The notes: generated from the letters alone by a model not told the origin. Numbered from the stretch's first letter, positions 7,026-29,290 are shown. The stretch: DNA of 64,000 nucleotides from Halioglobus sp. (GCA_029287595.1 JARFQU010000109.1:1-64000), one strand, 5' to 3'. Numbers and translations are program-made.

Positions 7026-8567
7026 TTACAGTTGATTGCGCACAGGCAGGACACGACCCAGGTTGGCCTTGAGTCGCTGGTAGCCGGTGGTATCGGGTTC
7101 CCTGGTAAGTATCTCTGTCTGCCCGTTGTTGATTTTGCGCCAGCGCAGGCGACCCTGGTCGTCAAGAAATGGGATGTAGCACATCTCGGGGGCCAGTTTA
7201 TAAAAACGATCTGCAAGCCGAGTCGCAATTTCCGGGGACTTGATGATGATACCTAACTCGGTATTGATGTCAGCAGAGCGCGGATCCCAGTTGAACGAGC
7301 CCATAAAAAAGTAGCGCTTGTCGACAATAAAGGCCTTGGTGTGCAGGCTGCTTTTGGCTTTCCTTTGGCCGGACTCCTTGGTGCCCTCTATATGCAGGTC
7401 GCCACGCACCTCGTACAACCTTACCCCGTGTTCCAGCAGCGCCTTGCGCGACGAGGCATAACCGCTATGTACCAGGGTGTGGTCACTGGATGTCAGTGAG
7501 TTAGTCAGGATGTCTACCTGTATCCCGCTGTCTTGCAATGCCTCGTAGCCGGTGGCTGCATTATCGCGCGGCACCAGGTAGGGCGAAACAATCAGTAATG
7601 ATTCCTGGGCTGAGCGCACTGAACGCAATAGCGGTGTCACGATGCCCGGGGCTTCCTCGGCCTCTTCCTCGCCCAGGGATTTGTCCGGGGAGTCGAACAC
7701 CAGTTGGTAAGGTGCCCAGGTCAGTTTTTTGTCTTCACCTTCAATGAAAATTTCCAGGGAGCTGTGCACAGCGTCCGCGTAAGGCGTGTCGCGCAGGGCG
7801 TCAGCATTATCCTCCAACGTCTCCCTTACTGCCTGCAGGCGGGCGCCGTCGTCTTTCTTCTGGCCCGATAATTGTTGATACGGTACGGCGTTTCGGTGAT
7901 TCCAGTACGCATCGAACATGCGCGAGGTATCGCGCACTACAGGGCCCACGGCCAGAGTATCCAGGTCACCAAAATTATACTCGTTATTGGCTGCGAAGTA
8001 CTCGGTGGCAATGTTGCGCCCGCCAATGATGGTGAGCTGGTTATCCACGGTAAAGGACTTATTGTGCATGCGCCGGTTGATGCGCCCGAAGTCCCAGGCA
8101 TCGAATGCCCGGAAACTGCGGTTGGCAAAGGGGTTGAACAGCCTCAGCTCGATATTGGGGTGATCTGAGAGCCCCGCCAGTTTGTGTTCCATACCCCCGG
8201 TGTTGATGTCATCGATCAACAGGCGGACCCGAACTCCTCGGTCTGCTGCGCGCAGTAGTGAATTAAAGAACACCTTGCCGATAATGTCGTTATTGATCAT
8301 GTAGTACTGGGCGTCAATGCTCTTCTCTGCCCACTCTGCCGCTAATAGCCTGATCGCCAGCGCATCGATGCTGTCGGTTACGATGTAGAAACCGGATTCA
8401 TTTTTTGGTCGCGTGGCATGTCTGGCAAACAGCTTGCCCAGGCGGGTGTCGCCGGTATCGGTGATCGCCTGGGAGGCTGCTTTCGGTGCGTCGAAGTCCA
8501 CTGTGGCACAGCCCCACAGCAGGCTTATAAGCAGGCTCGCTAGTAGCTTTTTTAGCGCGGAGGGCAT
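7026..8567 (-). CDS. Phospholipase D-like lipoprotein (ClsC/YmdC-like)
   Basis: Two HxKxxxxD motifs are present: MHNKSFTVDNQLTIIGGRN in the first half and LHTKAFIVDKRYFFMGSFNW in the second. The protein therefore has both halves of a phospholipase D active site. The layout and length (513 residues) fit the ClsC/YmdC group, in which E. coli ClsC makes cardiolipin from phosphatidylglycerol and phosphatidylethanolamine. I start at 8567 because the product then opens MPSALKKLLASLLISLLWGC, a lipoprotein signal with Cys20. An in-frame start at 8624 would bury this signal. Whether it is a synthase or a hydrolase is not determined by the motifs. Confidence 0.85.
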   Translation of the reverse strand: MPSALKKLLASLLISLLWGCATVDFDAPKAASQAITDTGDTRLGKLFARHATRPKNESGFYIVTDSIDALAIRLLAAEWAEKSIDAQYYMINNDIIGKVFFNSLLRAADRGVRVRLLIDDINTGGMEHKLAGLSDHPNIELRLFNPFANRSFRAFDAWDFGRINRRMHNKSFTVDNQLTIIGGRNIATEYFAANNEYNFGDLDTLAVGPVVRDTSRMFDAYWNHRNAVPYQQLSGQKKDDGARLQAVRETLEDNADALRDTPYADAVHSSLEIFIEGEDKKLTWAPYQLVFDSPDKSLGEEEAEEAPGIVTPLLRSVRSAQESLLIVSPYLVPRDNAATGYEALQDSGIQVDILTNSLTSSDHTLVHSGYASSRKALLEHGVRLYEVRGDLHIEGTKESGQRKAKSSLHTKAFIVDKRYFFMGSFNWDPRSADINTELGIIIKSPEIATRLADRFYKLAPEMCYIPFLDDQGRLRWRKINNGQTEILTREPDTTGYQRLKANLGRVLPVRNQL

Positions 8568-8638
8568 GAACCGTGGATTTCTCTGTCCAAGTGTAGTGGC
8601 ACTTAGTTTAATACCTGGCGGCAATGATTTGCGACTTC

Positions 8639-9807: not shown

Positions 9808-10557
9808 ATGTACAAATTTTTAGTGGCCTGTAGTGTGCTGATGTTCAGCACGGCAGCGGTCGGCCAGGAGCTGACCGCGGATGAGATCATTCGCAAGGCC
9901 ATGGACCACTATCGCGGGCAGACCTCCCATGCCCAGATGAGCATGGTGATTCACCGTCCGGACTGGCAGCGCGAGATGGGCATGAAGACCTGGACCGAGG
10001 GTGACAAACGCACCCTGGTGCGTGTGACTGTGCCCGCCAAGGACGCGGGCAATGGCACCTTGTCGGTTGACGGTAACATGTGGACCTACACCCCCAAGAT
10101 CAACCGGGTGGTCAAGGTGCCCTCATCGATGATGAGCCAGAACTGGATGGGCAGCGATTTCTCCAACAAGGACATCAGCAAGGATACCGATATCATCGAC
10201 CAGTACGACCATGAGCTGGTGGGCAATTATCAGCAGGATGGCCACTACGTCTACGTGATCCAGTCTGTGCCACACGAAGAGGCAGCGGTGGTATGGGGCA
10301 AGGAAGTGCTGCATATACGCGATGACTGGGTCATGCTGGAGCAGCAGTTCTGGGACCAGGATGACCAGCTGGTGAAGACCTTGCGCACCCTGGAAATACG
10401 CGAAATGGATGGGCGCGAGGTCGCAGCGGTTATCCGTATGTCCAGGGAGGGCGTCGAGGAAGAGTGGACGGAGGTGCGCACGGCCGCGATAGATTTCGAC
10501 GTGGAATTAGCGGAAAACCTGTTCACTCTCTCCAATTTGAGAAATCCTCGGGAGTGA
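9808..10557 (+). CDS. LolA-like outer-membrane lipoprotein-sorting family protein
   Basis: A cleavable signal peptide (MYKFLVACSVLMFSTAAVGQ) leads into a 249-residue periplasmic protein of the LolA/LolB-like fold family: ADEIIRKAMDHYRGQ, MKTWTEGDKRTLVRV, GNMWTYTPKINRVVKVP and LENLFTLSNL-like ending AENLFTLSNLRNP. Such proteins have a hydrophobic groove that carries acylated cargo. The start at 9808 is favoured over 9802 because GAGGA lies 7 bp upstream. Its stop overlaps the GTG start of the next gene (GTGA), so it is translationally coupled to two permeases, an ATPase and an outer-membrane barrel. It is not LolA itself, which normally lies elsewhere and is shorter (about 200 residues). Confidence 0.85.
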   Translation: MYKFLVACSVLMFSTAAVGQELTADEIIRKAMDHYRGQTSHAQMSMVIHRPDWQREMGMKTWTEGDKRTLVRVTVPAKDAGNGTLSVDGNMWTYTPKINRVVKVPSSMMSQNWMGSDFSNKDISKDTDIIDQYDHELVGNYQQDGHYVYVIQSVPHEEAAVVWGKEVLHIRDDWVMLEQQFWDQDDQLVKTLRTLEIREMDGREVAAVIRMSREGVEEEWTEVRTAAIDFDVELAENLFTLSNLRNPRE

Positions 10558-11783
10558 GTGTCACCTGGCGCCTCGCCTGGCGCAATCTCTGGCGGCACAG
10601 CCGCCGCACCTGGCTTACGGTGGGCGCCATGGTGTTTTGCAACGTGTTGCTGATTTTCCTGATTTCCCTGCAGCTTGGCTCCTACCAGATGATGATCGAC
10701 AACAGCCTGGCCAGCTTCAGCGGTCACGCCCAGGTTCAGCACCGGGATTATCTGGAAGAACAACGCATGCGCCAGAGCGTGCCACGTGCCGCTGCGCTTG
10801 CGGCCTCGGCGCGCGACGCGCTGGGGTTGGAAACGACAGCGGCGCGGGGCATGGCTTTTGCCCTGGTCTCCAGTGAACAGCGCTCCTTCGGCGTGTTATT
10901 GCAGGGTGTGCAACCGGTGTATGAGCCAGGTGTGTCCACGTTTCCCGGCCTGGTGCGCCAGGGGCGTTACCTGGCCAGTGGCGACGGCGGGCATATCGTG
11001 CTGGGTTCGGTGTTGGCGCAGAACCTGAAAGTGGGCCTGGGGGATGAGCTGACTTTTCTCGGCAGCGGGCGCGATGGCTCCTTTGCCGCGGGGGTGGCCA
11101 CTATCGTGGGTATTCTGGACACCGGGATGGACGAGATAGATCGCAGTGTCGCCCAGGTGCCGCTGGCCTGGTTCCAGGATATATTCAGCATGGGCGACCA
11201 CGCTCACAGTGTGGTGGTGCGTTTGCCTTCGCTGGAGCAGGTGCCAGTTGCCGTGGCTACCCTTGAAGGCCTGGTGGGGGGGCAGGATGAACTAGTGGTG
11301 CGGGATTGGGATGCCCTGCAGCCGGGACTGCGCCAGGCGATTGCCTCGGACATGGCCAGTGGGTGGTTCACCTATGTGGTGCTGATTGTGCTGGTGGCTT
11401 TCAGTGTACTCAACACTCAGTTGATGTCGGTATTGGAGCGCACCCGGGAATTCGGCGTGATGCTGGCGCTGGGTATGCGCCCGGCGCAACTGGCGCGGCT
11501 GGTGGGCATGGAAACCCTGTTGATGTCCGGTCTGGGTATGGCCCTGGGGGTGTTGCTGGGCGCGTTGCTGACCTGGTACCTCAGCGTCGCTGGATTTGCC
11601 TACCCGGGGATGGAGGAACTGGGGGCGAAGTTCAATATGCCGGGCCGCATGTATCCCGAGGTCAGCCTGCTGTCCCTGCTCTGGGGCCCGGTGGTGGTGT
11701 TGTTCGGTGCCATGCTGGCCGCTATTTACCCTGCCCTGCGACTGTTTCGGCTGGCCCCGGTGGCGGCCATGAGGGCAGTGTGA
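10554..11783 (+). CDS. ABC transporter permease, FtsX/LolC-like (first of two)
   Basis: The 409-residue protein has the LolC/E-MacB topology. One membrane helix follows the N-terminal WRLAWRNLWRHSRRTW, then a periplasmic domain of about 230 residues, then three C-terminal helices that include LMSVLERTREFGVMLALGM, the FtsX coupling segment. The GTG start at 10554 overlaps the preceding stop as GTGA. The end overlaps the next permease as ATGA in the TGATG arrangement. A paired permease and a LolD-type ATPase follow, so it should form half of a heterodimeric mechanotransmission-type ABC transporter in the inner membrane. Confidence 0.9.
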   Translation: MSVTWRLAWRNLWRHSRRTWLTVGAMVFCNVLLIFLISLQLGSYQMMIDNSLASFSGHAQVQHRDYLEEQRMRQSVPRAAALAASARDALGLETTAARGMAFALVSSEQRSFGVLLQGVQPVYEPGVSTFPGLVRQGRYLASGDGGHIVLGSVLAQNLKVGLGDELTFLGSGRDGSFAAGVATIVGILDTGMDEIDRSVAQVPLAWFQDIFSMGDHAHSVVVRLPSLEQVPVAVATLEGLVGGQDELVVRDWDALQPGLRQAIASDMASGWFTYVVLIVLVAFSVLNTQLMSVLERTREFGVMLALGMRPAQLARLVGMETLLMSGLGMALGVLLGALLTWYLSVAGFAYPGMEELGAKFNMPGRMYPEVSLLSLLWGPVVVLFGAMLAAIYPALRLFRLAPVAAMRAV

Positions 11784-13015
11784 TGGTGGCGCCATTGGGA
11801 GTCATTGCCACCCTGGCCTGGCGCAACCTGTGGCGCAACCACCGACGCACCTTCATTATGTTGTTGGCGATCGCTATCGGGGTCTGGGCGATGATCTTCA
11901 TGTCTGCGCTAATGCGGGGAATGACTGACGAGATGGTCGCCAACGGATTGCGCAATCTTCCCGGGGAGGTGCAGGTGCACCAGGCGAGTTATCGCGCGGA
12001 TCCCAGCGTGGTGAACAGCATGCCGCTGCCCTCCGGTGAGCTTGCCAGGGAGCTGGAGCAACCACCGGTGCTGGCCTGGTCTGCCAGGGTCCGGGTGCCG
12101 GCGGTGGTTGCCAGCGAGCGCGACAGCCGCGGGGTGACCCTGCTGGGAGTGGATCCCCTCGCTGAGCAGGCGTTGGGCTCGTTGCCAGAAAACATCATAG
12201 CGGGGCGCTTTTTACACGACGAGGATGATCGCGGCCTGGTGCTTGGCGCGAAACTGGCGCAGCGCCTGGAAACGGGGTTGGGCAAACGCGTGGTGGTGAT
12301 GTCCCAGGACCCCGATAACAATGTCGCCGACCGCGGTATGCGTATTGTCGGCATTTATCGCGCCCGGCTGCAGGGCACCGAGGATCAATTTGTCTATGTC
12401 GGGCGCGCTGCCCTGCAGGAGATGTTGGGTATCGGGCCATTGGTGTCGGAGGTAGCGGTGACTGCGCATGACTACCGCAGCGTGGCAAACTGGTACCCTC
12501 GGCTCGCCGCAGCGGCGGGGGAGGACCTGGAGGTGATGCCCTGGACAGAACTGGATACTTTTCTCGCTACCTACTTATCGGTACAGGACGGTTTTGCCCT
12601 GATCTTTATGGTGGTGGTGTTCCTGGTGCTGTCTTTTGGCCTGGTTAACACCCTGGCCATGGCCGTCTTCGAACGGGTGCGCGAAATAGGCCTGATGCAG
12701 GCCTTGGGTATGCCGCCGATGATGATTCTCGGCCAGTTATTGCTGGAGAGTCTCTACCTGCTGGTGCTCGGGCTGTTGCTGGGCAACCTGCTGGCACTGG
12801 CCAGCATCAAATCACTGGAAGATGGCATCGATATTTCCAGTGTCGCCCAGGGCATGGAAATGATGGGTATGGGCACGATTCTCTATCCGGTACTGGCTTT
12901 GCAGGATATGGTCATGTCTACCGCGGTGGTAATCGTCCTGGGTTTGCTGGCCAGCCTGTTGCCGGCCTGGCGTGCGGCGCGACTGGATCCGATCCGGGCC
13001 CTGAACACAATTTGA
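11783..13015 (+). CDS. ABC transporter permease, FtsX/LolE-like (second of two)
   Basis: This is a diverged paralogue of the upstream permease: it opens with LAWRNLWRNHRRTFIMLLAI, has one N-terminal membrane helix, a periplasmic domain and three C-terminal helices with NTLAMAVFERVREIGLMQAL. Length is 410 residues. The ATG at 11783 overlaps the preceding TGA, indicating translational coupling and near-equal synthesis of both subunits. The shared N-terminal RNLWRxxRRT patch in both subunits is probably where the ATPase or inner-leaflet contacts occur. As in LolCDE, one subunit may bind the periplasmic carrier and the other the cargo; this is inference. Confidence 0.9.
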   Translation: MVAPLGVIATLAWRNLWRNHRRTFIMLLAIAIGVWAMIFMSALMRGMTDEMVANGLRNLPGEVQVHQASYRADPSVVNSMPLPSGELARELEQPPVLAWSARVRVPAVVASERDSRGVTLLGVDPLAEQALGSLPENIIAGRFLHDEDDRGLVLGAKLAQRLETGLGKRVVVMSQDPDNNVADRGMRIVGIYRARLQGTEDQFVYVGRAALQEMLGIGPLVSEVAVTAHDYRSVANWYPRLAAAAGEDLEVMPWTELDTFLATYLSVQDGFALIFMVVVFLVLSFGLVNTLAMAVFERVREIGLMQALGMPPMMILGQLLLESLYLLVLGLLLGNLLALASIKSLEDGIDISSVAQGMEMMGMGTILYPVLALQDMVMSTAVVIVLGLLASLLPAWRAARLDPIRALNTI

Positions 13016-13030
13016 TGAGGTGATGCAGCA

Positions 13031-13735
13031 ATGAGTGCCATATCCTGCCGCAACCTATGCAAGACTTTCCGCCAGGGCGAGGAAGTTATTACCGGTCTGG
13101 ATCATGTGAATCTGGATATCGAGGGCGGGTCCTTCGTCTGTTTGTCGGGCCCCTCGGGTTCCGGGAAGACGACCTTGCTCAATGCCATGGGTGGGCTGGA
13201 TACCCCGGATGAGGGTGAGATCACGGTGGGGGAATACCGGGTCGATCGCCTGTCCAAGGGTGAACTGGCGGATATGCGCTTGCGCAGCATCGGGTTTGTA
13301 TTTCAGTCCTATAACCTGATTCCGGTGTTGTCCGCGCGCGAGAACGTTGAGTTCGTGATGCAGGTGCAGGGGCTTCCGGCCCCGGAGCGCCGCAGCCGCG
13401 CAGAACAGGTGCTGGCGGAAGTGGGCCTGTCGGGTCTGGAGGAGCGTCTGCCCGGCGACATGTCCGGAGGCCAGCAACAGCGGGTCGCGGTGGCCCGCGC
13501 TATCGCCAATCAACCCGCACTGGTACTGGCGGATGAACCCACCGCCAACCTCGACACCCGCACCGCGGCCCAGTTGATGGACCTGTTTGTCGCCCTGAAC
13601 CGGGAGCGGGGGATCACTTTTGTGATCGCCACTCACGACGTCAGGGTGATGGGCTATGCCCGGCGCTTGGTGAGCATGCGCGACGGCCTGATCGTGGCCG
13701 ATGAGCAGCAGGAATCGCACTCAATGGAGGTGTAA
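13031..13735 (+). CDS. ABC transporter ATP-binding protein, LolD/MacB type
   Basis: This is a canonical 234-residue ABC ATPase: Walker A GPSGSGKT (residues 40-47), Q-loop FQSYNLIPVLSA, signature MSGGQQQRVAVARA, Walker B LVLADEP with TANLDT, and the switch histidine in VIATHD. The IGFVFQSYNLIPVL form is typical of the LolD/FtsE/MacB class that works with FtsX-type permeases. It starts 15 bp after the second permease (SD GAGG) and is followed at once by an outer-membrane barrel gene. It should power the two upstream permeases. Confidence 0.93.
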   Translation: MSAISCRNLCKTFRQGEEVITGLDHVNLDIEGGSFVCLSGPSGSGKTTLLNAMGGLDTPDEGEITVGEYRVDRLSKGELADMRLRSIGFVFQSYNLIPVLSARENVEFVMQVQGLPAPERRSRAEQVLAEVGLSGLEERLPGDMSGGQQQRVAVARAIANQPALVLADEPTANLDTRTAAQLMDLFVALNRERGITFVIATHDVRVMGYARRLVSMRDGLIVADEQQESHSMEV

Positions 13736-14989
13736 TTGCGGCCTCCGGTTTTCATTCCTGTCCTGTTGTTACTGTGCCTGCGCGTCCAGGCGGGAGACAT
13801 ACCCTGGCTGGAGGGCGGGCACACCAAGTTGCGCGCGCTGGCAGGCTACTACCCGGATGACAGCATTTTCCGGGAAGCATTCGGGGAGTGGGAAGACAGC
13901 GAGGGAGCGGGCCTGCGCCTGAAATTTGCAGGTGACCATGGGCGTTTTGGCCTGACTGCGCACTATCAGTTGCTGGGGCAGTCTGGTGACAGTCCGGATT
14001 TACTGCAGCAGTCGTCTGGCCTGCTGCCGTTATCTCCCCGGCTGCCCGATGATGACCGGCGTTGGTGGGATCTTACCGACCAGGTCAGTGACAGCGGTTC
14101 CCATGAACTGGTGCAGCGCCTGGACCGACTGCACCTGGATTACCGCGGCGACACTACCGTGCTGCGCTTCGGCCGCCAGGCGATCACCTGGGGCAATGGC
14201 CTGGTCTATTCTCCCATGGATCTTTTCAATCCCTTCGACCCCGCGGCCGTGGATACCGAGTACAAGCTGGGCGATGACATGCTCTACGGCCAGTACCTGC
14301 TGGACAACGGCAGCGACTGGCAGTTTGTGTCGGTGCAGCGTCGGGACGAGGATGGCGATGTGGACAGCCGGGTCAGCTCCAACGCATTGAAGTTCCATGG
14401 CTTTGGCCTGGCCCGGGAATTTGACCTGCTGGTGGCGGAACACTATGACCAGTTTATCCTCGGGGCCGGTGCGGTCATGAACCTGGGGGAGGCAGTGCTG
14501 CGCGGCGATGTTACTTTCACCGACGCCCACGATGGCTGGGAAACCAGCCTGGTGGCGAATTGGTCCTATTCCTGGGTCTGGGCGGGTTACAACGTGAGCG
14601 GCGTGGCGGAGTATTTTTATAATGGCTTCGGCCTGCGTGAATCGGACTACACCCGGGAAAATTTCCGTGAAAATCGGGATCTGCTGGAGCGCCTCGCGCG
14701 CGGTGAGCTGTTTACTATCGGGCGGCATTACCTGGCGGGTTCACTGCCTCTGGAGCTGACTCCACTGCTGACACTGACACCCAACCTGTTTTTCAATATG
14801 GGAGACAGCTCTGCGCTGGCGCAGTTGGTATTGCAGTGGGACATGGCGCAGAACTGGCAAGTGCTGGGGTCTCTGGCCGTTCCCCTGGGGTCAGCGGGCA
14901 CGGAATACGGTGGACTGGAGACCGAGGTGGACGACCTGACCCTGGAGGTCGGGCCGTCCCTGTTTGTGCAGTTGGCCTGGTATTTCTAG
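13736..14989 (+). CDS. Outer-membrane beta-barrel protein of the Lol-like cassette
   Basis: The gene begins with TTG directly after the ATPase stop; GGAGG at 13726-13730, 5 bp upstream, supports this start. A short signal peptide (FIPVLLLLCLRVQA) precedes about 395 residues of alternating polar/aromatic strands such as LHLDYRGDTTVLRFGRQAIT and GNGLVYSPMDLFNPFDP, with a C-terminal SLFVQLAWYF. The terminal phenylalanine is typical of outer-membrane barrels. It partly resembles DUF1302-like porins but I cannot name a family. Its fixed position after a LolA-like carrier, two permeases and an ATPase suggests it is the outer-membrane end of that machine. The stop shares CTAG with the convergent GST gene. 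Confidence 0.72.
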   Translation: MRPPVFIPVLLLLCLRVQAGDIPWLEGGHTKLRALAGYYPDDSIFREAFGEWEDSEGAGLRLKFAGDHGRFGLTAHYQLLGQSGDSPDLLQQSSGLLPLSPRLPDDDRRWWDLTDQVSDSGSHELVQRLDRLHLDYRGDTTVLRFGRQAITWGNGLVYSPMDLFNPFDPAAVDTEYKLGDDMLYGQYLLDNGSDWQFVSVQRRDEDGDVDSRVSSNALKFHGFGLAREFDLLVAEHYDQFILGAGAVMNLGEAVLRGDVTFTDAHDGWETSLVANWSYSWVWAGYNVSGVAEYFYNGFGLRESDYTRENFRENRDLLERLARGELFTIGRHYLAGSLPLELTPLLTLTPNLFFNMGDSSALAQLVLQWDMAQNWQVLGSLAVPLGSAGTEYGGLETEVDDLTLEVGPSLFVQLAWYF

Positions 14990-15606: not shown

Positions 15607-15785
15607 TGTGGGCCGGGTCCTTGGTAGTGAGGGAAATTTCCCATTAGGGTCGCCAATATTAGGCATTTATCCCTTATTGCGCCAGTTGTGGCGGGATCGG
15701 CGGTAGAAATGCCCCGAATCCTCAGTTTTCCCTCACGCCATAACTGGCTATAATGCGCGCCGGTCCAGAAAAGGAAGTAAGTCTA

Positions 15786-16208
15786 ATGTCACGTATCATT
15801 TGCAGTATTGTCGCCATCCTGCTGGCCTCCAGCGCCCTCGCTCTGGAGCTCAGTGATAGCCAGCGGGCGGATATTGAAACGCGTATAGCCCCCGTGGGTG
15901 AAGTTTGTATGCAGGGCGATAACAGCTGCGGTGGCGCCGCAGTGGCCGCCAGTAGCGGCCCCCGCTCGGGAGAAGATGTCTACAATAGCGCCTGTATGGC
16001 CTGCCACACCACCGGTGCCGGTGGCGCACCCATGCTCGGTGATGCCACTGCCTGGGCCGATCGTATAGCCAAGGGTAACGAGGTCCTTTATGCCAGTGGT
16101 GTCAACGGTGTCCCGGGTACCGGTATGATCGCCAAGGGCGGCTGCATGCAGTGCTCCGATGAAGAAATCCATGCGGCAGTTGATTACATGGTCGCCGGCA
16201 GCCAGTAG
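15786..16208 (+). CDS. Cytochrome c5-like monoheme protein
   Basis: A signal peptide (MSRIICSIVAILLASSALA) exports this 140-residue protein to the periplasm. Heme attachment CMACH is at residues 70-74. The distal part, GTGMIAKGGCMQCSDEEIHA, provides the axial methionine and the extra cysteine pair characteristic of cytochrome c5. It probably carries electrons between the bc1 complex and terminal oxidases or reductases. AAGGAAG lies 6 bp before the ATG. A TATAAT at 15749-15754 is a plausible -10 box although no good -35 is seen. A strong terminator follows, so it is probably monocistronic. Confidence 0.9.
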   Translation: MSRIICSIVAILLASSALALELSDSQRADIETRIAPVGEVCMQGDNSCGGAAVAASSGPRSGEDVYNSACMACHTTGAGGAPMLGDATAWADRIAKGNEVLYASGVNGVPGTGMIAKGGCMQCSDEEIHAAVDYMVAGSQ

Positions 16209-16229
16209 CGATCCCGGCATTAGATCGAG

Positions 16230-16263
16230 AAGCCGCAGCGCTGTCGCGTTGCGGCTTTTTTTG
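16230..16263 (+). terminator. Rho-independent terminator of the cytochrome c5 gene
   Basis: AAGCCGCA (16230-16237) pairs with TGCGGCTT (16250-16257), and the 3' arm merges into a run of seven Ts. It lies 21 bp after the cytochrome stop codon. Confidence 0.85.
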
Positions 16264-16322
16264 TTCAGGACGCGCCATAAGCACTCTGCTACAGTGCGTT
16301 GATGTTATCCGGAGACCTTGCC

Positions 16323-17453
16323 GTGAATAGATCCCTGTTCTTCGCGACGCTCACCTTGTTGCTGCTGGCGGTGGTGGGCTGTGCCGAAGAGGTGCCGCCC
16401 CAGCGCACTGTGGAGGTGGTGGTTGATGAGGTGGTGCTGGAACCGTACCAGCCCAGGTCCCAGTATGTGGGACGCTTGCAAGCCCAAGACGATGTGACTA
16501 TCGAGGCCAGGATTACCGGCTACCTGCTTTCGAGGGAGTTTGTCGAGGGCGAGGTGGTGCAGGCCGGAGACGTGCTGTATACCATTGAGGCCTCCGAATA
16601 TGAGGCGGCCCTGGCCCGGGCCCGAGCTGATCTTGCGGCGGCTGTCGCCAACCAGGCCAACGCCCTGCGCAACTACAAGCGCGGCGAGGACCTGCTGCCC
16701 AAGGGCGCCATCTCCGAAGCGGAGATGGACGACCTTATCGCCAGGAAACTGGATGCCGACGCCCGCATTGAATCCGCCAGGGCCCAGGTTACCAGCGCCG
16801 AAGTCAACCTGGGTTTCACTACTATCCGCGCCCCGATTACGGGTCGCATAGGGCGCAGCACCGCCAGTGTCGGTGACCTGGTGGGGCCAAATACAGGTTA
16901 TCTCACTACGCTGGTCAGCGACGACCCCATCGAGGCCTTGTTCCAGATCAGTGAGGCGACCTACGTCGCAGCCGTGGGGCGCGGGTTTGGCAGGGAACTG
17001 GAGGCCGATTTCGTGCGCCGCCTCGAAGTCACCCTGCAACTGACCAATGGCACCGTATACCAGGAGGTAGGCAGGATCGACTATTTTGCCAACCGTATCG
17101 ACCGCACCACCGGCACCCTGGAAGCGCGTGCCCTGATTCCCAATCCCCACTCGCAGTTGCTGCCTGGGCAGTATGTACAGGTGATATTGCAGGACACGCA
17201 TCTGCTGGAGGGCCTGTTTCTGCCCCAGGCCGCAGTGCAGGCTGATCAGCAGGGCAGTTTCGTGCTGATCGTCGATGGCGGCAGTACCGTGGAGCGGCGC
17301 AATGTCGCACTGGGCGACAGGCGCGAAGACATGGTGCTGGTGAGACAGGGTGTGCATGAGGGTGACCGGGTGATCGTACGGGGCCTGCAGCAGGTGCGCC
17401 CCGGTATGCCGGTGAAGGTCAAGTCCATACACGCTATGGAGCCACAGGGCTAA
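16323..17453 (+). CDS. RND efflux periplasmic adaptor lipoprotein (AcrA-like)
   Basis: The adaptor has lipoprotein signal MNRSLFFATLTLLLLAVVGC, then the membrane-fusion-protein order: barrel-sandwich half (VGRLQAQDDVTIEARITGYL), coiled-coil hairpin (YEAALARARADLAAAVANQ ... SAEVNLGFTTIRAPITGRI), beta-barrel (LPGQYVQVILQDTHL) and membrane-proximal domain (VIVRGLQQVRPGMPVKV). I choose GTG at 16323 because GGAGA is 7 bp upstream and the signal peptide then has normal length; an ATG at 16302 is possible. It lies 3 bp before the RND pump and is surely its partner. No outer-membrane channel gene is adjacent, so a TolC-type protein from elsewhere would be needed. Confidence 0.92.
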   Translation: MNRSLFFATLTLLLLAVVGCAEEVPPQRTVEVVVDEVVLEPYQPRSQYVGRLQAQDDVTIEARITGYLLSREFVEGEVVQAGDVLYTIEASEYEAALARARADLAAAVANQANALRNYKRGEDLLPKGAISEAEMDDLIARKLDADARIESARAQVTSAEVNLGFTTIRAPITGRIGRSTASVGDLVGPNTGYLTTLVSDDPIEALFQISEATYVAAVGRGFGRELEADFVRRLEVTLQLTNGTVYQEVGRIDYFANRIDRTTGTLEARALIPNPHSQLLPGQYVQVILQDTHLLEGLFLPQAAVQADQQGSFVLIVDGGSTVERRNVALGDRREDMVLVRQGVHEGDRVIVRGLQQVRPGMPVKVKSIHAMEPQG

Positions 17454-17456
17454 GCC

Positions 17457-20400
17457 GTGTTCAGCGCATTTTTCATAGGCCGGCCCAAGTTCGCGCTGGT
17501 TATTTCTATTGTACTGACCCTGGCGGGCGGCCTTTCCATCTACATGCTGCCGATAACCGAGTACCCGACGATATCGCCTCCCAGCATCCGGGTCAGCGGT
17601 GTTTACCCCGGCGCTTCTGCGGAAGTCGTGGAGGCTACCGTAGGCACCCCGATAGAGGACGCGGTCAACGGTGTGGAAGACATGATTTACTTGTCCTCCA
17701 AGAGCGCGAATGACGGAAGTTACAGCCTTACAGTCACTTTCGCGGTGGGCACCGACCCCGACATGGCCCTGGTGCGGGTGCAGAACCGGACCAAGCTTGC
17801 GGAGCGCTCGCTGCCCGCCGAAGTCATCGCCATGGGGCTCAATATTGAAGAGCGCTCGCCGGATATCCTGAAAATCATCAGCTTCGCCTCTCCGGATGAT
17901 TCCCTGGATTACAAGTTCATCTCCAACTACGTAAAAATCAACGTGCAGAGCGCCCTGGCCAGGCTGGAGGGCGTTTCCTCGGCAGACATTCTCGGAGAGG
18001 CAGAGTACTCCATGCGCCTGTGGCTGGACCCGCAGCACATGGCGAACCTGGACCTGTCCGTGAAGGATATTCGCGAAGCCCTGCTGGAACAGAACATACA
18101 GGTGGCCGCGGGAAAAATAGGTGCGCCACCCTTTGACGGCCCGCTGCAGACTGAGTACACCCTGCAGACCAAAGGCCGGCTGCAGGAGGTGGAGGAGTTC
18201 GAGAATATCGTGCTGCGCGCCCGGGATGATGGCTCCGCTGTCTATCTGCGCGATGTGGCGCGGATCGAACTGGGCCAGTCTGAATACAACTTTTATGGTG
18301 AGATTAACGGCACGCCGGCGGTGAACGTGGCGCTCTACCTGCTGGCGGATGCCAATGCCCTGGCGGCGGGCGCGGCAGTGGATCAACGGGTGGCCGAGCT
18401 GTCCCGGTATTTCCCGGACGGCCTGGACTACCAGATCACCTACGACACCACCCGCTACGTGTCGACGGCGGTAAAGCAGGTGGTCATTTCCCTGTTCCAG
18501 GCAGTACTGCTGGTGATCGCCATTACCTTCGTGTTCCTCGGTAACTGGCGCGCCACCCTGGTGCCGGCAGTGGCCATTCCCGTATCCCTGGTGGCTACTT
18601 TCGCGGTGCTGCTGGCCGTTGGTATGTCCATCAATACGGTCACCCTGTTTGGACTGATCCTGGCCATTGGTATCGTGGTGGATGACGCCATCCTGGTGAT
18701 CGAGAACTGTGACCGGCATATGCGCGAAGATCCCACCATGGATGCGCGGCAGGCGGCCCTGATTACCATGCGCGAGGTCGGTGGCGCGATTATCGCCACC
18801 ACACTGGTGCTGCTGGCAGTGTTTATCCCGGTGGCGATGCTGCCGGGTATTACCGGCGAGATGTATCGCCAGTTTGCGGTAACCATCTGTGTGGCGGTGG
18901 TATTCTCATCCATCAATGCGCTTACCCTGAGCCCGGCCCTGTGTGGCCTGCTGCTCAAGCCCGGGGAGAAGCACGACGCGCGCTGGTACCGGATATTTCT
19001 CAGTGGCTTCGAACGCATTACCGCGGGTTATGACCGGGGAGTGCAGTGGATATTGCGCAGGCTGCTGCTGGTCGCGGTGATCTTCCTGGCCTGGATGGGG
19101 GCTCTGGGCCTGGGTGTCTTGGGTACGCCCACAGGGTTTGTTCCCGATGAAGACAAGGGTCTGTTGCTGGTCAACGTACAGTTGCCCGACGCCTCATCGC
19201 TTACCCGTACCAAGGACGCGGTGGATAAGGTGACCCGCATCCTGGCCAATGACCCGGCCGTTGAGTCGGTCACCGCGATTACCGGCTACTCCATACTCAG
19301 CGGCGCCATGGCTAGTAACGGCGGCACCCTGTTTGTGGTGTTGAAGCACTGGGATGACAGGCAGGAGCGGAAAAACCTGGTGTTCAACGTGGTGCGACGG
19401 GTAAACGGGCAGGCCTTTGTAATGGTTCCAGAGGCCCAGGTTTTCGCCCTGGCGCCACCGGCGGTGCCCGGGATGGGCGCCGTGGGCGGCCTTGAGGCGA
19501 TGCTGCAGGATACCCTGGCCCGCTCGCCTGCAGAGTTGGCTGGCGTGCTCAATAACCTTATTGTTGAAGGCAACCATACGCCTGGGCTTCAGGGGGTGTT
19601 CAGTACCTACCGGGCCAACGTGCCCCAGTATTTCATCGACGTGAACCGGGTAAAGGCGAAGAATCTTGGCGTTGAGCTTTCGGAGATTTTCATGACCCTG
19701 CAGGCCCAGATGGGCTCTCTTTATATCAATGACTTCAATAAATTCGGGCAGACCTACAAGGTCATCATGCAGGCGGAGTCCCCCTACCGTTCGGACCTAT
19801 CGGATCTGGATCATTTCTATGTAAAATCCTCCAACGGGACCATGGTGCCCTTGAGTACCCTGGTGACCACCCAGCCGATCCTGGGGCCCGATGTGGCGCC
19901 GCGCTATAACCTGTACAGCGCCGCCTCGGTGCGTGCCAGCACCGCTCCCGGTTACAGTACCGGGGAGGCGATGACGGCCTTCGAGCAATTGGCGGCGAAG
20001 GCGTTGCCCGCGGGCTACAGGATAGAGTGGACCGGGATGGCCTACCAGGAGAGGGAGGCGGGCAGCACCGCCATCTTCGCCTATACCCTGGCACTGATGT
20101 TCGTGTACCTGTTCCTGGTGGCGCAATACGAAAGCTGGTCTATCCCGGCGGCGATAATACTGGTGGTCCCCATGGCAATTGGCGGTGCTATCGCGGCGCT
20201 GCTGCTCAGTGGGGTGCCGCTTAACCTGTATGCACAGATCGGGTTGGTACTGCTGATAGGCATGGCGGCGAAGAACGCCATTCTCATCGTGGAGTTCGCC
20301 CGCCACCGGCGTGAGCAGGAAGGCCAGGAAATCCTGGTAGCTGCCCGTGAGGCCGGTCGCCTGCGTTTCCGGGCGGTGTGTATGACCGCCGTATCGTTCA

Positions 20401-20609
20401 TCCTGGGTATCATGCCCCTGGTTTTTGCCACCGGTGCGGGCGCCTTCGGCCAGCGTTCGCTGGGTATAACGGTACTTGGCGGTATGCTGGCCGCGCTGCT
20501 GGTGGGTACGTTTTTCATACCCGGATTTTACGCGATCGTGCAGAGCGCACGGGAGCGCATTAAGCGAAAACTGGGTATGGCAATTCCCGCCGATGACGCC
20601 ACCCGCTAA
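17457..20609 (+). CDS. RND multidrug efflux transporter (AcrB/HAE1 type)
   Basis: At 1050 residues it has the full RND length, with 12 membrane helices in two repeats and two large periplasmic loops. [20 protein letters not shown] opens helix 1. [13 protein letters not shown] (Asp409-Asp410) is the proton-relay pair of helix 4, and the mirrored [20 protein letters not shown] lies in helix 10. Start is GTG, 3 bp after the adaptor stop. Substrates for this pump class are hydrophobic drugs, bile-like molecules or solvents; which apply here is unknown. The antisense strand is open for about 800 codons across the junction, which I consider a codon-bias shadow. Confidence 0.95.
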
Positions 20610-27278: not shown

Positions 27279-27935
27279 ATGTCGGATGAACTATCTGCGG
27301 CGCAGGCAGCCAATGGAGAAGACGCCGATACGGCCAGCACTATGGAGATGCCAGTCGAGCAAAGTCCCGCCCTGGCATTAACGAAGCACGCAGCGATCCA
27401 TCTGCTGCTGTGGGTTGTGGTATTTTCCCTGTACGCCGCAGCCGACAGCTGGTACCTGCTGACCAATCTCGGGCTGGCGCTGTTGCTCAGCGTGATGACG
27501 GGCCTGCTCGCGGGAATTACCACCACCACCCTGGTGCATGAATGGTTCCACTTGCTGGGCGCTTGGCGCTCGGGTGGCGCCTACAGTATTCCTGCCAAAC
27601 CCGGCTTGTTTGTCTACGACTGGAAATTTGCCGATAACACCGTAGGGCAGTTCAATATCATGAGTGTGGCCGGCAGTGTGGGCGGCGCTATTGCGTTACT
27701 GCTGCTGTGGTATGCGCTGCCGGTGCCCAACCCCGGACGCGCCGCTGTACTGGCGGGTGCTGTGGCCAGCTTCGCCTTTGCCGGGGCCATTGAGTGGCCG
27801 GTGTTGGCGCGCACGCGTCACAGCCGCGACCCCCTGGCGGAGCTGTCCAAGATTACCCCCCCGGTATTGCTGCGCAGCCTGTTGGTGGGGGTAGTCGTCG
27901 GTGGACTGGTGTTGCTGGCCTATCATCCCGACTAG
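27279..27935 (+). CDS. Membrane protein of unknown function with HEXXH motif
   Basis: About 35 polar residues precede four to six membrane segments in 218 residues. The second segment leads into TTTLVHEWFHLLGAW, giving HEWFH (His87, Glu88, His91), the zinc-binding signature of metalloproteases. It is placed at a membrane boundary as in site-2-protease-like M50 proteins. A later conserved-looking NIMSVAGSVGGAI could correspond to the third-ligand region, but no clear LDG is seen, so catalysis is uncertain. I do not recognise the family. A GATAAT 10 box-like sequence lies 20 bp upstream. It ends tail-to-tail with the DUF1329 gene, sharing CTAG. Confidence 0.65.
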   Translation: MSDELSAAQAANGEDADTASTMEMPVEQSPALALTKHAAIHLLLWVVVFSLYAAADSWYLLTNLGLALLLSVMTGLLAGITTTTLVHEWFHLLGAWRSGGAYSIPAKPGLFVYDWKFADNTVGQFNIMSVAGSVGGAIALLLLWYALPVPNPGRAAVLAGAVASFAFAGAIEWPVLARTRHSRDPLAELSKITPPVLLRSLLVGVVVGGLVLLAYHPD

Positions 27936-29290
27936 CGCACCCCACCGCGGGCCAGGCCCTTGGGTGAAAAGTACTTCTCGTTTTGCTTGACGCCAACACG
28001 GTATTCACCAGGGATGGGCTTGCCGTTCAGGTTGTAGATATTCTGTAGCAGGTCATAGGCGCCGTAGGCTGAGCCAAAACCCGATTTGAGGTCGTACAGG
28101 TTGGCCGCGTAGTTGTACTGTACGCGCCACAGCTGGTCCCGGCCGTCATACATCTCACCGGCCACGGCCAGCCAGCTGTCTTCATCGATGTAGAAGGTAC
28201 GGCGGCTGTAGAGGTGGCGGCTGCCCTCTTTCAGGTGGGAGTCGACAACCCAGACCCGGTGTTTTTCCCAGCGTATCGCATCCGGGTCGAGGAATTTTTC
28301 CCCCAGCATATCCTCTACTTTTTTCTGAAAGACGAAGTCATAGCTGTTGGCGGGGATAATAATTTCCTTCTTGCCCATCAGGGTCCAGTTGAAGCGTTCC
28401 GGCGAGCCGTTGTAGATAAACGAGTCGTCGTAGGTGGTAGTGCCCGCAACCCCGGGGTTGGGCGTGTCAAAAGCGACTGCCGGGGCCAGGCGCACCCGGC
28501 GCTGGCCCACCAGGTACTGCCAGGCCTTGCGCCCTTTGCCCGCGGTGTAGTCTGCCCCCGGCTCGTGCACCAGCAGGATTTCCCCGGCACGCCGCGCCGG
28601 GGCTTTATAGTTTATGCGCAACTTGGTCCAGTTGTTTTCCCCTACCAGCTCGTCTGGATTCCTGAACATGGGAAACACGGAGCTGGACACCGCCGTGGTG
28701 GACAGCACCGGCTTGCCATTGGAGCCCACGTAGTACACGTCGTAGTCCATGTTGAAATCGGTGCCGTAGCGCACCATGTGGTTCCACATCACTTCCAGTG
28801 CTGACTGGGGAATGGGGAAGGGTACCCCGGGATAGTTGCCATCAATTTTCTGGCCGTCCTCTACCAGGGTCGCCCCGGTGGCATTTTTCAGGGTATTGGC
28901 ATAGTACCAGTCTGGTCGTATGGTCCCACGGTGGCTGGGGTAGACGTGCATCTTGTAACCGTCCGCGCCGAACTTCTCGAACATCCCCCGCGTACCCACG
29001 GTCAGGTTGTCGGCGTGTTCTTTCCAGTTGCTGCCGTCAATGGTAAACAGCGGCTGCTCGTCGGCGTAGGGGTTGGTATAGTTGCCCGAGCCGGGTACGA
29101 AATCTGCCGGGATGGCCGTGCCCTGTGAATTCCACGGGGGGATGGAGCCATCGGCATTGCCCGCCATTTCCGCGCCCATGGGGGTGAGGTCCTGGCCCAG
29201 GCGGGCCGCTTCCTCGGGGGAGACTGCGCCCAGAGTCGAACCCGCCGCGAGCGAAGTCAGGTAAAGTGCCGTCAGAGTCTGTTTGATCAT
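27932..29290 (-). CDS. DUF1329 family protein
   Basis: A signal peptide (MIKQTLTALYLTSLAAGSTLGA) precedes a 430-residue mature protein. AVSPEEAARLGQDLTPMGAE, the tryptophan/tyrosine-rich beta strands, PNPGVAGTTTYDDSFIYNGS and FYIDEDSWLAVAGEMYDGRD all match DUF1329. This LolA-like periplasmic family is usually found in operons with DUF1302 barrels and RND-type lipid exporters. Those partners are not adjacent here. It may shuttle hydrophobic compounds between membranes. A cytochrome P450 lies 117 bp upstream on the same strand, so cargo related to its substrate is conceivable. Confidence 0.88.
   Translation of the reverse strand: MIKQTLTALYLTSLAAGSTLGAVSPEEAARLGQDLTPMGAEMAGNADGSIPPWNSQGTAIPADFVPGSGNYTNPYADEQPLFTIDGSNWKEHADNLTVGTRGMFEKFGADGYKMHVYPSHRGTIRPDWYYANTLKNATGATLVEDGQKIDGNYPGVPFPIPQSALEVMWNHMVRYGTDFNMDYDVYYVGSNGKPVLSTTAVSSSVFPMFRNPDELVGENNWTKLRINYKAPARRAGEILLVHEPGADYTAGKGRKAWQYLVGQRRVRLAPAVAFDTPNPGVAGTTTYDDSFIYNGSPERFNWTLMGKKEIIIPANSYDFVFQKKVEDMLGEKFLDPDAIRWEKHRVWVVDSHLKEGSRHLYSRRTFYIDEDSWLAVAGEMYDGRDQLWRVQYNYAANLYDLKSGFGSAYGAYDLLQNIYNLNGKPIPGEYRVGVKQNEKYFSPKGLARGGVR

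Follow-up and report, generated by a model that had tools for sequence, protein, structure and literature searches.

Positions 9808-14989 of the window, that is of the whole 64,000-nucleotide stretch of Halioglobus sp. DNA that was analysed, carry five co-directional genes that together resemble the Lol lipoprotein export machinery. The question they raise is whether they form a second Lol system, as the initial annotation had suggested, or a transporter of another kind, and in that case what they carry and where. All five open reading frames are confirmed present as one operon:

9808..10557, + strand: PF17131 carrier of the LolA superfamily, periplasmic, 249 aa, with a signal peptide (Pfam PF17131 LolA_like, 2.4e-47)
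10554..11783, + strand: permease A, type VII ABC, GTG start (Pfam FtsX, 1.4e-17, and MacB_PCD, 1.9e-11)
11783..13015, + strand: permease B, type VII ABC (Pfam FtsX, 3.7e-16, and MacB_PCD, 2.5e-20)
13031..13735, + strand: ABC ATPase, 234 aa, DevA/LolD/FtsE/MacB-like (ABC_tran, 5.8e-33)
13736..14989, + strand: predicted outer-membrane beta-barrel, 417 aa, probably a distant DUF1302-superfamily member, with a TTG start and a C-terminal Phe (family alignment, profile comparison and all-beta model)

The close coupling of these genes, claimed at the outset, is borne out by their junctions. Read directly, the carrier TGA and the permease-A GTG at 10554 overlap as GTGA, and the permease-A stop and the permease-B ATG at 11783 overlap as TGATG. 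Permease B is separated from the ATPase ATG at 13031 by a 15-bp gap, and the ATPase TAA ends at 13735 with no gap before the barrel TTG at 13736, just upstream of which lies a GGAGG. The features of type VII ABC transporters are present, namely FtsX-type permeases with a MacB_PCD periplasmic domain and a MacB/LolD/FtsE-like ATPase. The terminal gene encodes a barrel, as described, where a Lol system would have LolB, which is encoded elsewhere in the genome.

Is the operon related to Lol beyond its layout? The host genome (3.69 Mb, 94.7% complete) was searched for genuine lolA and lolCDE, and both were found, together with lolB. LolA (contig C193) matches PF03548 at 4.1e-30 and passes the lolA equivalog cut-off, LolB (contig C85) matches PF03550 at 6.8e-37, and a LolCDE operon on contig C2 has permeases scoring 444 and 371 bits on the NCBIfam lolCE equivalog, for a cut-off of 362. 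Since lolCDE is present elsewhere, the absence of these genes, the first result that the initial annotation had named as speaking against it, was not obtained. On the same lolCE model, the window permeases fall below the cut-off by a wide margin, with 97.5 bits for A and 125.5 for B. The window ATPase is close to both DevA (208.4 bits) and LolD (206.7 bits) and under the cut-off for both (307.75 for LolD); the genome's own LolD, with 289 bits, also falls short of the LolD cut-off. In a Pfam search, the window carrier has no match to PF03548 up to an E-value of 1, and comparison of its family profile with the genome's own LolA gives 0.6%. Finally, in a joint sequence alignment, the genome's own LolC and LolE have a five-residue insert in the Hook region that is absent from every permease-A and permease-B sequence. 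In Escherichia coli, LolA cannot be recruited without the LolC Hook (residues 167-179), and a Hook is predicted for the Lol systems of proteobacteria in general (PMC10865981). With no Hook insert in the window permeases, the carrier must, to judge from the alignment, dock on them through some other contact. A second Lol system was rejected on these grounds: permeases below the family cut-offs, a different carrier family and no Hook insert. The initial reading thus holds for the layout, with two FtsX-type permeases, an ATPase and a LolA-fold carrier as in LolCDE-LolA-LolB, and fails for kinship, as permeases, carrier and terminal component all lie outside the Lol families. By its sequences, the operon is not a Lol-family system.

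A specialised second lipoprotein route could still be imagined without such kinship. The ABC pair would load only certain lipoproteins onto the carrier, and the barrel, as a substitute for LolB, would insert them or expose them at the surface. Among solved structures, the permease-B family is indeed closest to LolF, LolE and LolC, which its profile matches over most of its length (1.7e-41 for LolF), and the same role was proposed as possible for the Borrelia BBJ23-29 cluster, which associates an ABC transporter, a LolA-like protein and an Omp85 barrel (PMC13078400). However, the carrier is not a LolA, the Hook is missing, no lipoprotein gene occurs among the conserved neighbours and the relatives of the system run on RND/MMPL pumps; we regard this route as improbable.

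The conservation of the operon bears on whether its five genes work together. The barrel occurs in 21 of 116 genomes of the order and, with weak matches to the family profile counted, in 84 of 398 genomes of the phylum. Outside the window, the neighbourhoods of 37 window-type barrels were read (L002-L004, L042-L057, L060, L106-L122). ABC genes are in the cluster at all 37 and the carrier at 33, and two of the four loci devoid of a carrier run off their contig. The usual order is carrier-permease-permease-ATPase-barrel, with one locus having a single permease and two a fused double permease of 834 aa; in these two (L056:8503-13563 and L057:8220-13280) the order is carrier, ATPase, fused permease, barrel. 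The five-gene order is far beyond chance. It is kept while barrel identity to the window drops to 19-25%, which argues that the linkage is old, and the same cassette is found in Vibrio campbellii LJC015 and in Persicobacter (Bacteroidota). The order looked for in other genomes was therefore recovered, and homologous barrels occur with the transporter; the contrary result, barrels mostly on their own, was not obtained.

What surrounds the module is much less constant. No gene family outside the module recurs in more than five of 35 loci, several of those that do recur being antisense readings, and no recurrent neighbour revealing the cargo was found in these 35 loci. Genes for DUF3080, DUF4136 and a glutathione S-transferase (GST) adjoin the module in four close relatives only, and a PLD gene in none of the neighbourhoods read. 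These genes do not travel with the module and are thus local neighbours rather than parts of it. The DUF3080 and phospholipase-like lipoproteins, initially put forward as possible clients or partners, were rejected as such for this reason. The product of the phospholipase-like gene (7026-8624, - strand) is predicted to be a lipoprotein and has two PLD domains; it comes nearest to the cardiolipin synthases, though far under their cut-off (103 bits against 290). On the other side of the operon, positions 15753-20609 (+ strand) encode a small cytochrome-c-like protein, then the adaptor and the AcrB-type pump of an RND system, and no evident outer-membrane factor is encoded immediately after the pump; this block and the GST gene adjoin the module in its closest relatives (L002, L003, L042, L044).

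If the carrier is not LolA, its own family has to be considered. Its profile matches the solved structures 9tp6, 4z48, 3bk5 and 3buu at 1e-28 to 5e-22, and comparison with DUF1329 gives 87% (E 4e-6), so that at the level of sequence profiles the carrier is quite likely related to DUF1329. The label "outer membrane lipoprotein-sorting protein" is probably misleading for PF17131. The window also contains a stand-alone DUF1329-type protein of the LolA superfamily (27932-29290, - strand), with a weak PF17131 match at 28115-28267; its gene adjoins a cytochrome P450-like gene and has no DUF1302 neighbour within the window. A DUF1302 and DUF1329 pair is present in the same genome on contig C122.

The barrel has no Pfam or NCBIfam match, and a profile search of the PDB with it gave no match. 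Among 20 members of its family, DUF1302 is the commonest weak match (E<1 in 11 of them, best 3.8e-5), and there is no Pfam match to Omp85. Aligned with hhalign to 21 DUF1302 proteins, the barrel family gives 94% (E 1.5e-7), the alignment being centred on a common motif, GRQ-x-x-x-WG followed by P-x-D. The controls for the window barrel set gave 0.3% for the reversed profile, 4% for FadL and 9% for Porin_4, the last two with alignments drawn from the same order. A generic porin or FadL-type barrel was rejected by these profile controls. The window barrel is thus very probably a distant member of the DUF1302 superfamily, the profile match being at superfamily level. AlphaFold runs, made on alignments of 3-4 sequences only, gave an unusable model of the carrier (pLDDT 40) and a low-confidence, all-beta model of the barrel (pLDDT 56), for which Foldseek retrieved generic porin-like and other outer-membrane barrels and nothing more specific. 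Two weak homologues of the barrel, at L058:8480-9754 (E 5e-6) and L059:5117-6171 (E 2.5e-4), stand without the module, have outer-membrane-receptor-like and ExbB-like genes in place of the carrier, and were left out of the counts; by sequence they may represent a further branch of the barrel superfamily.

Carrier and barrel are also found with other pumps. PF17131 occurs in 95 of 150 genomes of the phylum, and most of its neighbourhoods that were read correspond to three architectures, some carriers being without a recognisable partner in the stretch read. Architecture I is that of the window, carrier-permease-permease-ATPase-barrel, with a two-permease ABC transporter. Architecture II, ATPase-permease-carrier-barrel, has a single-permease ABC transporter, and in architecture III an MMPL/RND pump adjoins the carrier and the barrel. 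Barrels of the single-permease and MMPL clusters give 97-99.8% with the window family in hhalign; compared with DUF1302 directly, the MMPL barrel sets give 96-97% and the single-permease set 0.6%. MMPL-type members exceed the Pfam cut-off for DUF1302 (9.3e-15) and, in the case of a PF17131 relative, for DUF1329 (7.5e-12), which ties them to AmeABCD of Castellaniella defragrans and to PP_0765/PP_0766 of Pseudomonas putida. In a maximum-likelihood tree of 64 carriers, the pump types separate with 2 changes, the minimum possible, versus 24 with shuffled labels (support of 100/99 for types I and II, 90/73 for type III); because the barrel profile partly guided which carriers were sampled, and some branches are long, the tree can be read for clustering but not for the sequence in which the changes took place. 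Plasmid pHIC of Haliovirga abyssi (Fusobacteriota; L146:4401-9858) carries an MMPL pump, a PF17131 carrier, a ferredoxin-like gene and then a barrel scoring 123 bits on the window-type barrel profile. To judge from this score, the plasmid, whose host is not a proteobacterium, apparently pairs an MMPL pump with a barrel close to the window type. We give about an even chance to a general view in which a widespread class of envelope-spanning systems for hydrophobic cargo joins an interchangeable inner-membrane extractor to a LolA-superfamily carrier and a homologous barrel, the window representing the ABC lineage and each change of pump having occurred about once, with its own carrier lineage.

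Taken together, the operon probably encodes a self-contained, ATP-driven ferry across the envelope for a hydrophobic molecule, ending in an outer-membrane barrel. The ABC complex would first pull the molecule out of the inner membrane, in the manner of LolCDE. Type VII ABC transporters are capable of such extraction, which has been proposed for YbbAP (PMC12646458). The PF17131 carrier would receive the cargo while bound to the periplasmic domain of the permeases, otherwise than through a LolC-type Hook. Once loaded, the carrier would cross the periplasm and dock on the DUF1302-superfamily barrel; from there the cargo would be released to the outer membrane or its outer leaflet, or else to the medium. 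The module, its conservation, its homologies and the occurrence of three pump types were established by computation, and we infer from there the direction, each transfer step and the kind of cargo. The latter would be a lipid, a lipid-like metabolite or a hydrophobic small compound; a lipoprotein is possible but less likely. Of the envelope-spanning lipid or lipoprotein path initially envisaged, a path for a hydrophobic cargo is hence the best reading, and its lipoprotein version is the weaker part.

The direction of transport could also be reversed. In an uptake or retrograde line, the barrel would admit a hydrophobic nutrient or strip lipid from the outer membrane, and the carrier would hand it to the ABC complex for delivery to the inner membrane. 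This alternative was retained in view of related RND sets that are required or induced on hydrophobic substrates. Indeed, the P. putida genes PP_0765/PP_0766 (DUF1302/DUF1329), whose products are predicted to form a complex, are needed with their RND pump for the use of Tween 20 (PMC10866462), and in TOL_3187/3188, a comparable MMPL set, both the MMPL-LolA protein and a putative porin encoded beside it are induced during growth on n-C28 alkane (PMC6304351). By analogy, these growth phenotypes could mean uptake. Nevertheless, the type VII ABC systems that have been characterised work outwards or in the periplasm (PMC12646458), AmeABCD acts as an efflux system (PMC6394551) and no catabolic genes are conserved next to the module, all of which make an inward route unlikely.

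Efflux of drugs or solvents on the MacAB-TolC model, in which the LolA-like protein would serve as the adaptor and the barrel as the duct to the exterior, would fit the MacB_PCD domains of the permeases and the solvent tolerance given by AmeABCD (PMC6394551). But the operon has neither a MacA-type adaptor nor a TolC-type duct, its two permeases and separate ATPase are arranged as in LolCDE and not fused as in MacB, and the low-confidence barrel model appears to resemble porin-like, single-chain barrels. Such a mechanism is very unlikely.

If the outward ferry for a hydrophobic molecule is the correct reading, a single modular machine would exist with three pump types in many proteobacteria and at least one member of the Bacteroidota, and DUF1302, DUF1329 and PF17131 would be joined in one pathway. 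For proteins whose sole annotation is "outer membrane lipoprotein-sorting protein", a concrete and testable set of partners would become available.

How does this set compare with known systems? No description of an ABC, PF17131 and DUF1302-like barrel set in proteobacteria was found in the open-licence literature; the plan itself is already known in RND form, and an analogous ABC, LolA-like and Omp85 cluster has been described in Borrelia. YbbAP-TesA differs in its 10-TM permease, its hydrolase partner and the lack of a carrier or barrel (PMC12646458). The Borrelia BBJ23-29 cluster (2026), known from structure prediction, likewise unites a type VII ABC transporter, a LolA-like carrier and an outer-membrane barrel, but its barrel is of the Omp85 type, its permease is proposed to be a homodimer and two TPR proteins are added (PMC13078400). 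The clusters of architecture III (L061, L123, L124, L149-L158 and others) share the carrier family and have a homologous barrel, whereas their pump is of the RND/MMPL type and the tree sets their carriers apart as a group. In C. defragrans, AmeABCD is made up of a DUF1302 barrel, a DUF1329 protein of the LolA superfamily, a YCF48-like protein and an HAE3 RND pump, and protects the cell from monoterpenes (PMC6394551). As in the window, an inner-membrane extractor, a LolA-superfamily carrier and a barrel, probably of the same superfamily, are encoded together. In contrast, the window operon contains no RND (HAE3/MMPL) pump, its pump being a type VII ABC transporter; neither its five genes nor the neighbours scanned with Pfam include a fourth periplasmic gene of the YCF48-like AmeC type; its carrier is the shorter PF17131 form and its barrel has 417 aa instead of 605. 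On the reading favoured here, the window operon represents the ABC-driven form of a design that combines an extractor, a LolA-superfamily carrier and a DUF1302-superfamily barrel, and of which AmeABCD is the RND version.
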